Shown piece by piece: positions 11,234 through 25,466 of a DNA stretch of 35,072 bases; within the stretch, counting starts at the first letter, position 1, and each line of letters starts with the position of its first letter. The stretch is from NCBI GenBank assembly GCA_016223135.1, contig JACRPQ010000014.1, positions 1-35,072 of the forward strand. The letters run 5' to 3'. Below the pieces are notes generated by a model, which was not told the DNA's origin, did not search any database, and saw nothing but the letters and a program-made list of their open reading frames with translations. A program made the position numbers and the translations under genes. Origin of the DNA: Chloroflexota bacterium (GTDB lineage Bacteria > Chloroflexota > Anaerolineae > Anaerolineales > Villigracilaceae).

Positions 11234-14200
11234 TCAGCCTAACAACTTCAGCAGCTTTCCAGCCAGTTCAACCACCGGCGCGCCGACTTTGCCTACGTTT
11301 TCGGCGGCTTGAATCAGCCCTTCGATGCTGACGCTGTACCACTTGCGGTTGGGTTTGGGTTTCTTCAGTTCTTCTTGCAAGTGTTCGAGGTTGTCACGGG
11401 TTTCTTCGGCTTGCTCAGCGGGCATGGACTTGAGCATTGCCTGCACAGCGGCGGTCAATTGTTTCAGCGTGTCTTGGACTTCGGGGGATAGCCCGGCGTT
11501 GAAACTGCCGTGGATGGTTTGCTTGACCTGGTTGTCTTTGCCAATGATAATGTTGCCACCCTCGAGGTTTCCATGCACTTCGATACGGACAGATTTATCT
11601 TCTTCTTTCTTCATTCTTCTCTCCTCTGGGAATAATCGCTCCCGGTCTTCGCGGCGGGATTCGGGGGTGACGAAGCCGTTCAGCACCTCGTGGACATTCA
11701 AGCGGATGACGCGCCTGTCCCAGGTTTCGGGGATTTCGGCGAGACCGTCGCGCTCGTAGGTGAGCAGTTTGTGATAGTCCAGCCGCAGACTGGGGTACTG
11801 CGCCGGGCAGATGAATTCTTGAATGGGAAAGGCTTCCTGCCCGGCGCTCTCGGTGAAGGTCTTGTGGATGGCGGCAAAGTGAGCGCGGATGGACGCCAGC
11901 ATCTCGCGGCGGGTGTTCTCCTGCCCGGTGACGCGAATCTCGATTTTCTTATCCGCCGCACTCGCCCGAACCAGGGCGCGGTTTTCATCCCAAGCCAGGA
12001 GCACGCCCCAGCGCCAGACCTGCCCGGAATCAATCCACTCGTGGGCGCGGACGATAAAGCGGGTGATGACGCTCTCCGGCAGTTCGGGGTAGGCATACTC
12101 GAAGGTCAGCGCGGCGGACCAGGCGGAGTCGGAGGCGGCGGGGGGTTCGTCCTGCGGCATGGCGTTGGGGAGGTACAGAGTCCCGTCTGCGGCGGCGGGG
12201 TAGGCGAGTTCGAAGCGCTGGAGAAGGTTGAGGATGAGGTTGCGATGCCAGGGTTCGTAATCTTTCAGGATGCGGCGGGTCATCGTTTCGGTCAGCCGCC
12301 CGGCGGCGGTGGAGCGCAGTTCTTGGTCGGTGATCAGGCGATAGACGGCGTTCGTCACCCAGTTGGGGTTGAGCACGCCATCCGGGCAGAGCGGCTCGCC
12401 GGCTTCGTCGCGGAAATCCAGTGCCACGCCCAGGTCGTGCAAGAGGGCGAGCAGCGCCTTCTGGTCTTCTTCATCTTCGATGCCCTCTTGGGCGCACAGG
12501 TCACGGTAACGCGCGTAGGGGATGATGTCGCGGCGTTCCTTCTCCCGCTCCAGCGCATCCTTGACCGCCAGGTGCGGACGGGCAAAGAGCACGCGCACAT
12601 GCGGCAGGGACTCGATTGCCTCTTGCAACGCGGCGCGCAGGCTCTTGATGCCTGCGTTCTCGCTGGCAGAGGTTTGCACAAAGGCGGCGATGTTCGGGAA
12701 GTCGCGCTTTAGGCGGTTTTGCGGCAGGTCGAGGACGTGCTGTTCGGCATCGGCGTGATTGCCGACGATGATGACGGGCGAATCGCCGCCAAAGGCGCGG
12801 ATGGTGCGCAGCCAGTACTCGACGCGGTTCTGCTCGTAGGTCTGGCGCACGTTGAGGACGAGGACATAGACGCAGCGCGCCGAGAAGAAGAAGGGATGGG
12901 TGGCGTGCATGAAGTCCTGCCCGCCGAAGTCCCAGACCCGGGCGGTGAAATCCCCAAAGGGCGTGGCGTGCGTCTCCACCGTCATCGTGCTGGGGCGGTT
13001 CTCCCGGTAACTGCCGTCCTTCAGGCGCCAGACGAGCGAGGTCTTGCCGGCGGCTGGCTGACCGATGAAGAGAATGCGCGCTTCGCCGAGGGTGCGCCCC
13101 TCCTGCCAGATGGCGCGGTAGAAGCGGAAGATTTCTTGCGCGTTGCCGCCGAAGATTTCATACCCCAACAGGGCGCGCGGCAGGGCGAGGGTCAGCGGGT
13201 TGCCGTTCAGGTTTAAGCGTTGCAAGTTCGCAAGTTGTCCGATTTCCGGCGGCAGGGCGGTGAGTTGATTGTCTTGAAGGTCTAACCTTTGCAGGCTGGA
13301 GAGCGCACCGATTTCGGGCAGCAGGGCGGTGAGTTGGTTGTTCCAAAGTTGTAAGGTTTTCAAGTTGGCAAGTTGACCAATTTCGGGCGGGAGGGCGGTG
13401 AGTTGGTTGCGCCCAAGGTTCAACTCTTGCAGGCGGGTCAGTGCGCCGATTTCGGGCGGCAGGGCGGTGAGGTTCAGCCTGCCCAAGCCCAATTCTTCCC
13501 AGTCGGTTTTGCGCCACAGTTCGGGCGGAATTTCGGGCAGCGGGTTGTCTGAGATGTCCAGCCGCTTCAGGGCAGGCAGTTCCCACACTTCGCGCGGCAA
13601 GGCGGTGAGATTCAGCCCGCTCAAGCCCAATTCTTCCCAATCGGTTTTGCGCCACAGTTCAGGTGGAATTTCGGGTAGCTGGTTACCTGAGATGTCCAGC
13701 TGCTTCAGGGCAGGCAGTTTCCACACTTCGGGCGGGAGGGCGGTGAGTTGGTTGCTCCAAAGGTCTAATTCTTGCAGGCGGGTCAGTGCGCCGATTTCGG
13801 GCGGGAGGGCGGCAAGTTGGTTGCTTTTCAAGTCCAAGGTTTGCAAGTTGGCAAGTTGACCGGTTTCGGGCGGCAGGGCGGTGAGTTGGTTGCTCCAAAG
13901 GCCTAATTCTTGCAGGCGGGTCAGCGCGCCGATTTCGGGCGGGAGGGAGGTCAGGCGGTTATATCTAAGTTGTAACGTTTGCAAGTTGGCAAGTTGACCG
14001 ATTTCGGGCGGCAGGGTGGTGAGTTGGTTGCCCGAAAGGTCTAACTTTTGCAGACGGATGAGCGCGCCGATTTCGGACGGGAGGGCGGTGAGGTGGTTGA
14101 GTTGCAAGTTCAAGGTTTGCAAGTTGGCAAGTTGACCGATTTCGGGCGGGAGGGCGGTGAGTTGGTTACTCGAAAGGTCTAACGCTTGCAGGTTGGCAAG

Positions 14201-14863
14201 TTGACCGATTTCGGGCGGCAGGGCGGTGAGGTTTAGGCTGCGCAAGCCCAATTCTTCCCAGTCGGTTTTGTGCCACAATTCGGGCGGGATTTCGGGCAGC
14301 GGGTTGCCAGAGATGTCCAACTGCTTCAGGGCGGGCAATCCCCACACTTCGGGCGGCAGGGCGGTGAGTTGGTTGCCCCGAAGGTCTAATTCTTGCAGGC
14401 TGGTGAGCGCGCCGATTTCGGGCGGGAGGGAGGTGAGATTCAGACCGCTCAAGCCCAATGCTTCCCAGTCAGTTTTGCGCCACAGTTCAGGTGGAATTTC
14501 GGGCAGCGGGTTGTCTGAGATGTCCAGCCGCTTCAGGGCAGGCAGTTCCCATATTTCGGGCGGCAGGGCGGTGAGGTTTAGGCTGCGCAAGCCCAATTCT
14601 TCCCAGTCGGTTTTGCGCCATAATTGAGGCGGGATTTCGGTCAGCGGGTTGCTTGAGATGTCCAGCCGCTTGAGGGCAGGCAATTTCCATAATTCGGGCG
14701 GGAGGGCGGTGAGCTGGTTGCCCCGAAGGTCTAATTCTTGCAGGCTGGTGAGCGCGCCGATTTCGGGCGGCAGGGCGGTGAGACCGAGACGGGAAAGGTC
14801 AAGCGAGGTGTCGCCGGTCTCGGCGGCTTGGCGGATGCGGGCGAGGGCGGTTTCGAGAGTCAT
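11234..14863 (-). CDS. leucine-rich-repeat Roco (ROC-COR) GTPase
   Basis: A 1209-residue multidomain protein. After a 30-residue N-terminus come exactly 23 leucine-rich repeats of 23 residues each (31-559), of the LPPEIGxLxxLQxLDLxxNxLTA type, alternating with [10 protein letters not shown] / [11 protein letters not shown] types. A ROC GTPase domain follows: P-loop GQPAAGKTS (601-609), WDFGGQ switch and a VGNHAD base-recognition motif. A COR region runs to about 1030. The last 118 residues (from 1092) have a [16 protein letters not shown] strand motif, a charged helical stretch and a hydrophobic amphipathic end ([19 protein letters not shown]). Roco proteins are dimer-regulated GTPases; bacterial roles are mostly unknown. 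GGAGA lies upstream of the ATG. The gene interrupts a ruvB-DUF2905-queA operon and is flanked by palindromes. Confidence 0.93.
13187..14773 (-). repeat. 69-bp tandem repeat array (23 LRR units)
   Basis: The DNA for residues 31-559 consists of 23 in-frame 69-bp units with no length variation. Some pairs form 138-bp super-units ([10 protein letters not shown] followed by [11 protein letters not shown]) that recur nearly unchanged, at repeats 2-3, 4-5, 7-8, 16-17 and 18-19. High nucleotide similarity between units suggests expansion by recombination. Confidence 0.9.
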
Positions 14864-22969: not shown

Positions 22970-22995
22970 AAAAGTAACCTTTTTTGGAGGCGCTC

Positions 22996-23622
22996 ATGTC
23001 CAACGTATACGCATCGAAACATCCGCTTGTTGCCCATAAACTTTCCCGTCTGAGAGATAAAAACACAGAGCCGAAAAAGTTCCGCGAATTGGTGCGTGAA
23101 ATCGCCGCACTGCTCACCTACGAAGCCACCGCCGACCTGATGGTGATGCCGCGCGAATTGGAGACTCCGCTTGCCAAAATGACCGGCTACGAACTCAAGG
23201 AGAAAATCGGGCTGGTCCCCATTTTACGGGCGGGGCTGGGAATGGTGGAAGGCGTGTGGAGCCTGATGCCCAGCGCGGAGGTCTGGCACATCGGTTTGTA
23301 CCGCGATGAGCATACGCTCAAGCCGGTGGAATACTACAACAAACTGCCCACCGAGCCGCGCGTTTCGGTTTGTCTGATTCTCGACCCCATGCTCGCTACA
23401 GGCGGTTCGGCAACCGCAACAGCAGAGATTTTGAAACGCTGGGGCGTGAAGAAAATCAAGTTCGTCGGGTTGATTGCCGCGCCGGAGGGCATCCGCGCCA
23501 TGCAGGAACAGCATCCCGACATTCCGATTCACATCGCCGCGATTGACAGCCACCTCAACGATAGAGCCTACATCGTCCCCGGTCTGGGCGACGCGGGAGA
23601 CAGGCAGTTTGGGACGGGGTAG
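22996..23622 (+). CDS. upp: uracil phosphoribosyltransferase
   Basis: A 208-residue pyrimidine-salvage enzyme making UMP from uracil and PRPP. The PRPP-binding loop is [15 protein letters not shown]. Family segments include the N-terminal [20 protein letters not shown] (normally N-V-x-xxHPLxxHKLxxxR), [13 protein letters not shown] and the C-terminal uracil-binding stretch [22 protein letters not shown] lies 5 nt before the ATG at 22996; a TTG 12 nt earlier is less likely. The length is normal. It is followed on the same strand by the alcohol dehydrogenase gene after a 67-nt repeat-containing spacer. Confidence 0.97.
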
Positions 23623-23689: not shown

Positions 23690-24724
23690 ATGAAAGCCAT
23701 GCTTCTGAAAGAGATTGCATCTTTCAAAGACAATCCAGCTCCGCTTGCGCTGGAGGAGATGGACGAACCCAGGCTGGGCGAGGGCGAAATCTTAATTCGC
23801 GTCACGCGCTGCGGGGTCTGCCACACCGAACTGGACGAAATCGAGGGGCGGACTCCGCCTCCGCGCCTGCCGGTGGTGTTGGGGCATCAGGTGGTGGGCG
23901 TGGTGGTGGATGTTGGCGAACGTCCGCTGCACACGGCACGTATCGGTCAACGCGTGGGCGTGGCATGGATCGCCTCTGCGTGCGGGAAGTGCCATCACTG
24001 CCTGACAGGGAACGAAAACCTGTGCGCCGACTTCAAAGCCACCGGGCGCGACGTGGACGGCGGCTACGCCGAGTACATGAAGGTGCGCGCCGAATTTGCC
24101 CATCCCCTCCCCGACGCATTCAGCGACTCGGAAGCCGCGCCGCTGTTGTGCGCCGGCGCCATCGGCTATCGGTCACTGCGCTTGAGCAACATTCAGGACG
24201 GGCAAAATCTCGGCTTGATGGGCTTCGGCGGGTCGAACCATCTCGTGTTGAAGATGGCAAAGCACAAGTTTCCGAATGCAAAGATTTTTGTCTTCAGCCG
24301 CAATCCCGCCGAGCGCGAGTTTGCCCTGTCGCTGGGGGCGGCTTGGGCGGGCGCGATTGACCAGAGTCCGCTCGAGGGGTTGGATGCGGTCATTGACACC
24401 ACGCCGGTTTGGGGTCCAGTGAATGAAGCGCTGAAGGTCTTGAGTCCCGGCGGGAGGCTGGTGATCAACGCCATTCGCAAGGAAGAGTCCGATAAAGAAG
24501 TCCTCGCCCAATTGGATTATCCGTCGCAGTTGTGGATGGAGAAGGAAATCAAGAGCGTGGCAAACGTGACGCGCGCCGACGTGCGTGAGTTTTTGGAGTT
24601 GGCGGCGCAGGCGGGCATCAAGCCTGAGTTTCAGGAATACGAGTTGAAGGATGCCAACCGGGCATTGCTCGAATTGAAGCAGGGGAAAATTCGCGGCGCG
24701 AAAGTATTAACGATAGGAGATTGA
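23690..24724 (+). CDS. zinc-dependent alcohol dehydrogenase (AdhA-like)
   Basis: A 344-residue medium-chain dehydrogenase. Catalytic zinc ligands are C44 (CGVCHTEL) and H66 (GHQVVG). The four structural-zinc cysteines are C98, C101, C104 and C112 (ACGKCHHCLTGNENLC). The nucleotide-binding loop is GLMGFGGSNHL, a variant of GxGxxG typical of the AdhA-like subgroup. It would oxidise or reduce alcohol/aldehyde pairs with NAD(P); the substrate is unknown. The length is normal and no frameshift is seen. The Shine-Dalgarno is weak (GGAG, distant). The stop codon is 1 nt before the methyltransferase start, so the two genes are co-transcribed. Confidence 0.93.
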   Translation: MKAMLLKEIASFKDNPAPLALEEMDEPRLGEGEILIRVTRCGVCHTELDEIEGRTPPPRLPVVLGHQVVGVVVDVGERPLHTARIGQRVGVAWIASACGKCHHCLTGNENLCADFKATGRDVDGGYAEYMKVRAEFAHPLPDAFSDSEAAPLLCAGAIGYRSLRLSNIQDGQNLGLMGFGGSNHLVLKMAKHKFPNAKIFVFSRNPAEREFALSLGAAWAGAIDQSPLEGLDAVIDTTPVWGPVNEALKVLSPGGRLVINAIRKEESDKEVLAQLDYPSQLWMEKEIKSVANVTRADVREFLELAAQAGIKPEFQEYELKDANRALLELKQGKIRGAKVLTIGD

Positions 24725-24725
24725 A

Positions 24726-25466
24726 ATGATGGCGCACGCGCTCAAAGACCCCGAAGGAAACGAGATAAAGCATCTGCATCAGTTTGCCGACTTTGCAGGC
24801 AAACGTGTGCTGGAAATTGGATGCGGCGAGGGACGCCTGACCTGGCGCTACGCCTCCGCCTCGTCCCTGACCGTTGGGCTGGACCCTGACCGAAATGCCT
24901 TGCGCCTCGCCCGCATCAACCGCCCCTCCGACTTGGCGAAGAGAGTTCACTTCGTCAACGCCCACGCCGAACATATCCCCTTCCGCAAAGAGACTTTCGA
25001 CATCGCCGTCCTCGCCTGGTCGCTCTGATGAATTGCCCATGCGGGCATGGTGCATGCCCTGGCTGAAATTCACAGAACGCTCGCGCCTGACGGCGTCCTG
25101 ATTGACCTGCGTCCGCTTTGTGACCGCTGGAGCATCGAAGTGTTCTCCGCCCGCGAAACGCGCGAGACGGGTCACGTTACTGACCTGCCGCTCGGCTTGG
25201 AAGACGACGCCGCCGCGAACAACGCCATGAAAGAAGCCGAAATCAATGGCTGGTTCACACGCGAAAGAGAGACGTTCTTCCCGCTGCATTACGTCTGGGA
25301 CACCGCCAGCGACATGGAAAAATGGGTGGATGAGGAATGGACGAACTTCATCGGTCTCGATGAGGAGGCGAGGCGTGCCACCCGCTCCGCCTGGGCGCTG
25401 GGCGACGCGGACAGCCGCGTCCGCATCCGGGCGAAGATGCTGCTGACAAGGTGGAGAAAGTCATAA
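24726..25466 (+). CDS. class I SAM methyltransferase with two in-frame TGA codons (candidate Sec-Sec selenoprotein)
   Basis: A 246-codon frame interrupted only by TGA TGA at codons 101-102 (25026-25031). Before them: motif I VLEIGCGEGRLTW (about 28-40), the acidic GLDPD (51-55) and FDIAVLAWSL (91-100). After them, still in the same frame: IAHAGMVHALAEIHRTLAPDG, the conserved end of a UbiE-like core, then an intact, well-composed C-terminus to codon 246. The downstream 144 codons show no decay. A stem-loop resembling a bacterial SECIS follows the TGAs (25035-25063). If both TGAs are read as selenocysteine, the protein is full length, with a Sec pair at the end of core strand 4, near the methyl-acceptor pocket. 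Otherwise it is a 100-residue truncated pseudogene. AGGAG lies 6 nt before the ATG at 24726. The substrate is unknown. Confidence 0.78.
25035..25063 (+). promoter_or_regulatory. SECIS-like stem-loop
   Basis: Upper stem GGGCAT (25043-25048) with ATGCCC (25054-25059) around the loop GGTGC; the closing G-C of that loop can also pair. Lower stem GCC (25035-25037) with GGC (25061-25063). The first loop G is 17 nt after the second TGA and 20 nt after the first, inside the roughly 16-37 nt window of the bacterial SECIS model, and the loop starts with GG as that model expects. Confidence 0.6.

Follow-up and report, generated by a model that had tools for sequence, protein, structure and literature searches.

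From our analysis of a 35,072-nucleotide stretch of DNA (hereafter the window), a methyltransferase gene with two adjacent in-frame TGA codons was predicted, at a probability that we put near 0.9, to encode a selenoprotein in which neighboring selenocysteine (Sec) residues would be specified through one shared SECIS hairpin and would act as a unit at SAM. Recoding of the UGA codons to Sec, the step from which the rest of this reading is built, is on the comparative sequence evidence a prediction that we hold with still greater confidence. The features concerned are collected in Table 1.

Table 1. Features of the methyltransferase locus in the window.
Feature	Coordinates	Strand	Basis or remark
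Uracil phosphoribosyltransferase gene (upp)	22984..23622	+	ORF and neighbor comparison
Zinc-binding dehydrogenase gene (ADH_N, ADH_zinc_N)	23690..24724	+	TGA stop separated from the methyltransferase ATG by one base
Class I SAM-dependent methyltransferase gene	24726..25466	+	246 residues including U101 and U102; ATG 24726; stop TAA 25464-25466
Codons of residues 26-37 (presumed SAM motif I; invariant G32, G34, G36)	24801..24836	+	Column conservation
Tandem in-frame TGA TGA, taken as Sec-Sec	25026..25031 (TGA 25026-25028 and TGA 25029-25031)	+	Direct reading and homologue codons
Putative SECIS hairpin GGGCAT-GGTGC-ATGCCC	25043..25059	+	Stem 25043-25048, loop 25049-25053, stem 25054-25059; comparative

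Reading frame and domain of the methyltransferase

The reading frame is interrupted solely by the TGA pair, and a single PF13649 domain extends over both halves of the protein (residues 28-123, 63.6 bits against a cut-off of 27 in the Pfam domain search); direct reading and this domain together confirm the sequence-only reading of the window, which had described one continuous methyltransferase frame broken only by TGA TGA. Over 59 proteins that are 23-82% identical to the window protein, only six columns are invariant, namely G32, G34, and G36 of the glycine-rich stretch that we take to be SAM motif I, both positions of the pair (101 and 102), and L112. With PF13649 above its curated cut-off and a glycine-rich motif I, the protein classes as a class I SAM-dependent methyltransferase, and that it has a SAM-dependent methyltransferase fold is close to certain. 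The dN/dS ratio 3' of the TGAs was 0.11-0.18 against four relatives (a rough estimate, with dS above 1 for three of the four), which is indicative of purifying selection on the part after the TGAs. The lack of decay in that part, claimed earlier from the letters of the window, is borne out both by this ratio and by the codon pair of the homologues described below. The zinc-binding dehydrogenase gene directly upstream terminates with TGA (24722-24724), which indicates that TGA is also a normal stop in this genome, as had been supposed from other genes of the window, and genome-wide recoding of TGA is thereby ruled out.

State of the codon pair in the family

Three overlapping surveys, together of about 770 genomes, were performed: the window protein was run against 41 relatives (28 family rows), alignment A1 against 400 genomes from the phylum (51 family rows), and alignment A3 against 396 genomes from the class (49 family rows). 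As both positions of the pair were Cys in the queries, a Cys-Cys relative would have been favored. All family rows of the three surveys hold one or two in-frame TGA codons, and the top rows free of TGA scored 43.7, 70.8, and 70.9 bits against 85.6, 110.7, and 86.9 bits for the lowest family rows of the same surveys. Seven candidates were scored per genome in the surveys of the phylum and the class, where weak Cys-Cys relatives could have escaped. Among the nine TGA-free rows of the phylum survey that were retrieved (L134-L142), eight were without the motif and the ninth, L136, is a member of the family. In L136 (G067:C26, near base 975 of the locus, minus strand), which stands outside all counts, TGATGA and the hairpin are intact and the frame is broken just upstream; this break is an assembly error or a young pseudogene.

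The codons of the pair were read in 99 distinct members (70 by script, L077 by eye, and 12 and 16 more from the class survey), and TGA-TGA (UU) was found in 70, TGA-Cys (UC) in 24, Cys-TGA (CU) in five, and Cys-Cys or any other combination in none. Codons 101-102 of homologues had been singled out earlier as the place where unrelated residues would speak against Sec; in 99/99 members each position holds U or C with at least one TGA, and the absence of any Cys-only homologue among them is unusual. In a tree of 70 rows, estimated quickly by maximum likelihood with the pair masked, the states required 13 changes among UU, UC, and CU (mean 22.2 when shuffled), which is indicative that Sec and Cys were exchanged several times with one Sec always left. 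The UU state occurs across long-diverged clades of this tree. A UU copy and a CU paralogue occur together in each of three genomes, G004 (L019/L046), G005 (L011/L048), and G414 (L069/L114), and the CU copies are placed elsewhere in the tree.

Homologues outside the phylum were also sought. A tblastn search of plasmids returned 105 records, none with 80% query coverage; a search of IMG/VR returned nine weak loci, and a scan of genome contigs with the single window protein returned two close relatives.

The hairpin downstream of the TGA codons

The hairpin begins 11 nt past the second UGA, and the start of its loop is separated from the first TGA by 20 nt and from the second by 17 nt, in agreement with the position and the distances originally given for it. 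For bacterial SECIS elements, a 2026 review gives a G within the first two loop positions and a distance of 16-37 nt between UGA and loop (PMC13188914). The hairpin of the window lies within both limits. The description of it as SECIS-like, made before any comparison, has stood up, as these limits and the compensatory changes among homologues indicate. When column numbers are taken from the pair's first base, the 70 aligned members form the stem between columns 18-23 and columns 29-34, which enclose a five-base loop. Changes on both sides of a pair (compensatory changes) were observed in six of eight tested pairs; paired cells amounted to 93.6%, against at most 57.7% when the partners were slid, and the cells with both sides changed numbered 27, whereas shuffling gave 5.3 and reached as high a number in 0/500 trials. 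The two outer additional pairs are weaker, being unpaired in 18/70 members at 17-35 and in 16/70 at 24-28. For the single 60-nt stretch of the window itself, the folding energy does not stand out (z -0.11), and it is from comparison that the hairpin draws its support. A tree-aware test on one pair gave a median p of 0.0625 from five independent starred contrasts, which are too few.

As a control for the coding sequence, the codons of each member were replaced, in 300 rounds, by synonymous ones that the family itself uses. The core pairs were Watson-Crick in 5.91 of 6 on observation and in 3.48 (sd 0.12) after recoding, and all six were present in 64/70 members against a mean of 1.8/70 (at most 6) after recoding. 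As recoding seldom leaves all six core pairs, the hairpin is conserved far more strongly than the coding constraint would require. The loop reads GGTCC, GGTTC, GGTCG, or GGTGC in 65/70 members and begins with CG in the other 5/70. Outside the 70, six pairs are present in 14 of 16 further members and five pairs in two. The most distant member read, L215 (G470:C47, 103.7 bits), is UU and has a stem of largely different sequence (GGACGC / GCGTCC) with six Watson-Crick pairs. In L199 (G697:C37), likewise outside the 70, the one pair that is invariant among the 70, a G-C, is flipped to C-G. The protein of L199 has Gly and Ala swapped across the hairpin (AMVHGL instead of GMVHAL) with the RNA pair kept, so that here the protein seems to follow the RNA. 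UC members use only the 20-nt distance and CU members only the 17-nt distance; as the hairpin is at one place in UU, UC, and CU members, one SECIS would serve UGAs at 20 and at 17 nt.

Selenocysteine machinery

The genome of the window (3.82 Mb in 19 contigs, 98.4% complete) carries selA, selB, selC, and selD, all four of the genes whose presence the sequence-only reading presupposed: tRNA-Sec (selC) scored 70.2 bits against a gathering score of 47 and was called SeC with anticodon tca by ARAGORN, SelB scored 328.9 bits with its parts within one 633-aa frame, SelA 537.2 bits, and SelD 354.5 bits. The SelD frame (L113, G000:C1:218290-219225) itself has one in-frame TGA within the codons TGC GCG GGT TGA, which we take to be the motif of the Sec form of the enzyme, and judging from this TGA, SelD would be an independent selenoprotein of the same genome.

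Among 400 genomes of the phylum (two draws of 400 taken as the same), tRNA-Sec was detected in 42/46 family genomes and 285/354 others, and among the 41 relatives in 21/23 family-bearing and 10/18 other genomes. Because the trait is widespread in the phylum (327/400), this co-occurrence discriminates little. A convincing tRNA-Sec was not obtained from six family-bearing drafts (G018, G026, G203, G235, G292, and G350), in each of which the best match was a tRNA-Ser or tRNA-Leu according to ARAGORN, with additional, weaker matches in G292 and G350; the missing tRNAs may be due to gaps or to divergence of the tRNA. SelB gave a full match in G018 and none above the cut-off in G026.

Structure and place of the pair

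The AlphaFold2 model of the protein (pLDDT 96.3, pTM 0.91) is a confident single domain of the class I methyltransferase type, in which the pair sits between strand 91-97 and helix 105-118. In structural comparison, all 1000 chains realigned had Z of at least 8, and the best was YcgJ (Z 21.2, 201 residues, 5.5 Å); TleD (Z 20.3, 188 residues, 3.9 Å) and RebM (Z 19.4, 203 residues, 5.2 Å) were also matched. Profile alignment placed the pair opposite the His-His of RebM (SLHHM) and the Cys-His of TleD (SLCHM). In WbdD, two essential His cluster around the SAM methyl, a place taken by two His or two Tyr in RebM and NodS (PMC3482155). The connection from WbdD to the pair runs in two steps via RebM, WbdD's own profile alignment having ended before the pair. 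From this alignment with the His-His of RebM, the counterpart of the WbdD His at the SAM methyl, the pair is very likely at the reaction center. In E. coli UbiG, Glu-His stands opposite 101-102 in a pairwise run of poor score (-3.0), in a stretch that mafft scrambled and before which the profile alignment ended, and no argument is built on this match. ArsM presumably has a Cys near the place of the pair; it was absent from the 50 structural matches listed, to which we attach no weight.

Gene neighborhood

A same-strand relative of the zinc dehydrogenase lies upstream in 15/70 loci, many of them with short flanks, and a same-strand relative of upp adjoins in 16/70, again with flanks often short. 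DUF1801 was found upstream in 15/70 loci and a Ham1/rdgB relative in 6/70. At L122 (G302:C125), from another family of the phylum and the only locus checked for rph, the methyltransferase gene follows rph and rdgB. The recurrent neighbors in the 70 loci, whose flanks are often short, gave no hint of a metal(loid). None of the present results links the YgeY-like hydrolase, 20 kb distant in the window, to the methyltransferase gene. Elsewhere in the window, positions 11234-14863 of the minus strand hold a long leucine-rich-repeat ORF (1209 residues), in which many of the repeats resemble one another and which had earlier been called a Roco gene.

Comparison with known families

Among the best 25 of 45 matching NCBIfam families (June 2026), none has a model for which the window protein scores above the cut-off. 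The selenoprotein ArsM fusions NF041536 (25.3 bits against a cut-off of 575) and NF041537 (30.5 against 510), MTase/UXPK-star NF047649 (26.8 against 460), MduS NF045649 (29.1 against 380), and the UbiG/COQ3 O-methyltransferases TIGR01983 (32.1 against 102.95) were rejected on these scores, and ArsM proper (NF008823) was absent from the same 25 of 45. The ArsM selenoproteins and fusions (NF041536, NF041537) and MTase/UXPK-star resemble the present family in being class I methyltransferases with Sec, the ArsM substrate being a metalloid, but their Sec motif is UxxG (also CxxU for NF041537), with no adjacent Sec listed in the table of the 2026 review (PMC13188914). MduS, a methyltransferase domain-containing selenoprotein, likewise combines such a domain with two Sec, but has a model of 338 positions and the motif CxxU (PMC13188914). 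An adjacent Cys-Sec comparable to that found here is present in the bacterial CU-motif selenoproteins SaoL, SaoC, HgcA, MbdU, and KCU-star, which are other families, and several of the CU-motif selenoproteins carry names that refer to organometal or mercury chemistry (PMC13188914). RebM, TleD, and WbdD share the fold, but are not selenoproteins and methylate natural products or, in the case of WbdD, a phosphate (PMC3482155).

The table of the 2026 review holds 119 prokaryotic selenoprotein families with several Sec methyltransferases and several CU motifs, and UU is not among them (PMC13188914). In eukaryotic algae, a methyltransferase selenoprotein exists (PMC2375036), and the algal PDI_e selenoprotein (GUGUU) has a Sec-Sec dipeptide that was claimed as the first (PMC7539508); PDI_e shares Sec-Sec with the present family, but is a protein disulfide isomerase of a eukaryote, with the eukaryotic Sec system. 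In the open-access literature, we found no earlier report of this Sec-Sec methyltransferase family, and the algal PDI was the only Sec-Sec found in print.

Proposed mechanism and alternative readings

We propose that the hairpin would act as a SECIS by which the ribosome is supplied with SelB, GTP, and Sec-tRNA on two successive occasions, at first for the UGA 20 nt before the loop and then for the UGA 17 nt before it, and that the product would be a methyltransferase with adjacent selenocysteines, both UGAs probably being decoded in most molecules. The resulting selenolate/selenolate or selenolate/thiolate pair would work as a unit, in which at least one Se would be needed and either position could carry it, and it may bind, in front of SAM, a substrate of the soft metal(loid) or chalcogen type. 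Since either residue may be Se and one must be, one fixed nucleophile is a poorer fit than a soft atom bound in bidentate fashion or a vicinal Se-S bond. As for the function, we rank substrate binding above a redox switch and a redox switch above a methyl relay. A metal(loid) or chalcogen substrate held by the pair is a tentative proposal, well short of an even chance, and the ligands for a metal site are few, as the only conserved Cys besides the pair is C33 (47/59 proteins). To the most far-reaching reading, we would give a little less than an even chance; in it, one bacterial SECIS decodes two adjacent UGAs successively in an obligate-Se family (no Cys-Cys seen), and vicinal selenolates stand in for two catalytic His and carry out, at the SAM methyl, chemistry beyond that of thiols: either a soft metal(loid) is chelated and methylated, or the methyl is relayed via Se-methylselenocysteine.

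Two alternatives concern whether both TGAs are translated at all. After the TGAs, an ORF of 139 codons starts at an in-frame ATG (25047), which would suit a regular stop with an independent gene behind it; this reading, along with a pseudogene or a sequencing error, is nevertheless reduced to a negligible probability by the same codons in 99 homologues, the purifying selection downstream, the continuity of one domain across the TGAs, and the confident single-domain model. It could also be that in UU genes only one UGA is read as Sec, the other taking another residue or mostly terminating, with the Sec-Sec product a minor one. Double decoding by one bacterial SECIS was not found reported in the open-access literature, and the existence of UC and CU members suggests that either distance is sufficient by itself; yet UU is the commonest state (70/99) and is found in long-diverged clades, and we consider single decoding improbable.

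The other two alternatives accept the Sec pair and differ on its role. A vicinal diselenide or selenylsulfide could serve as a switch for methyl transfer, or the protein could be mainly a reductase; the interchange of UU, UC, and CU over the tree with CC in 0/99 suits a pair that forms one bond, and most uncharacterized bacterial selenoproteins are likely redox proteins according to the review (PMC13188914). Against this, the Pfam domain search found no redox domain in the protein, no redox partner recurred among the neighbors examined, and the invariant motif I glycines indicate that SAM binding seems retained, so that a redox switch appears rather unlikely, if a serious competitor. Conceivably, one Sec accepts the methyl from SAM as Se-methylselenocysteine and hands it to the final acceptor, with the second Sec or Cys assisting. 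A selenolate is a stronger nucleophile and a better leaving group than a thiolate, and the pair is aligned with residues at the SAM methyl in related enzymes, both of which speak for such a covalent relay, but Sec occurs at either position (UC and CU), which is awkward for a single fixed in-line geometry, and we regard the relay as the least likely of the three functions.

Significance

Many selenoprotein finders depend on Cys-containing homologues, and the authors of deep-Sep state that the method may miss selenoproteins without Cys homologues (PMC12013277). The fact that no Cys-only member was seen in about 770 genomes may explain why the family is absent from the table of 119 families and from the NCBIfam models listed. 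The natural series of UU, UC, and CU members with one SECIS at one place makes both the spacing tolerance of SelB and the double action of a SECIS directly testable. In essence, the selenoprotein methyltransferase with adjacent Sec predicted here raises the question of which methylation needs selenium beside SAM.
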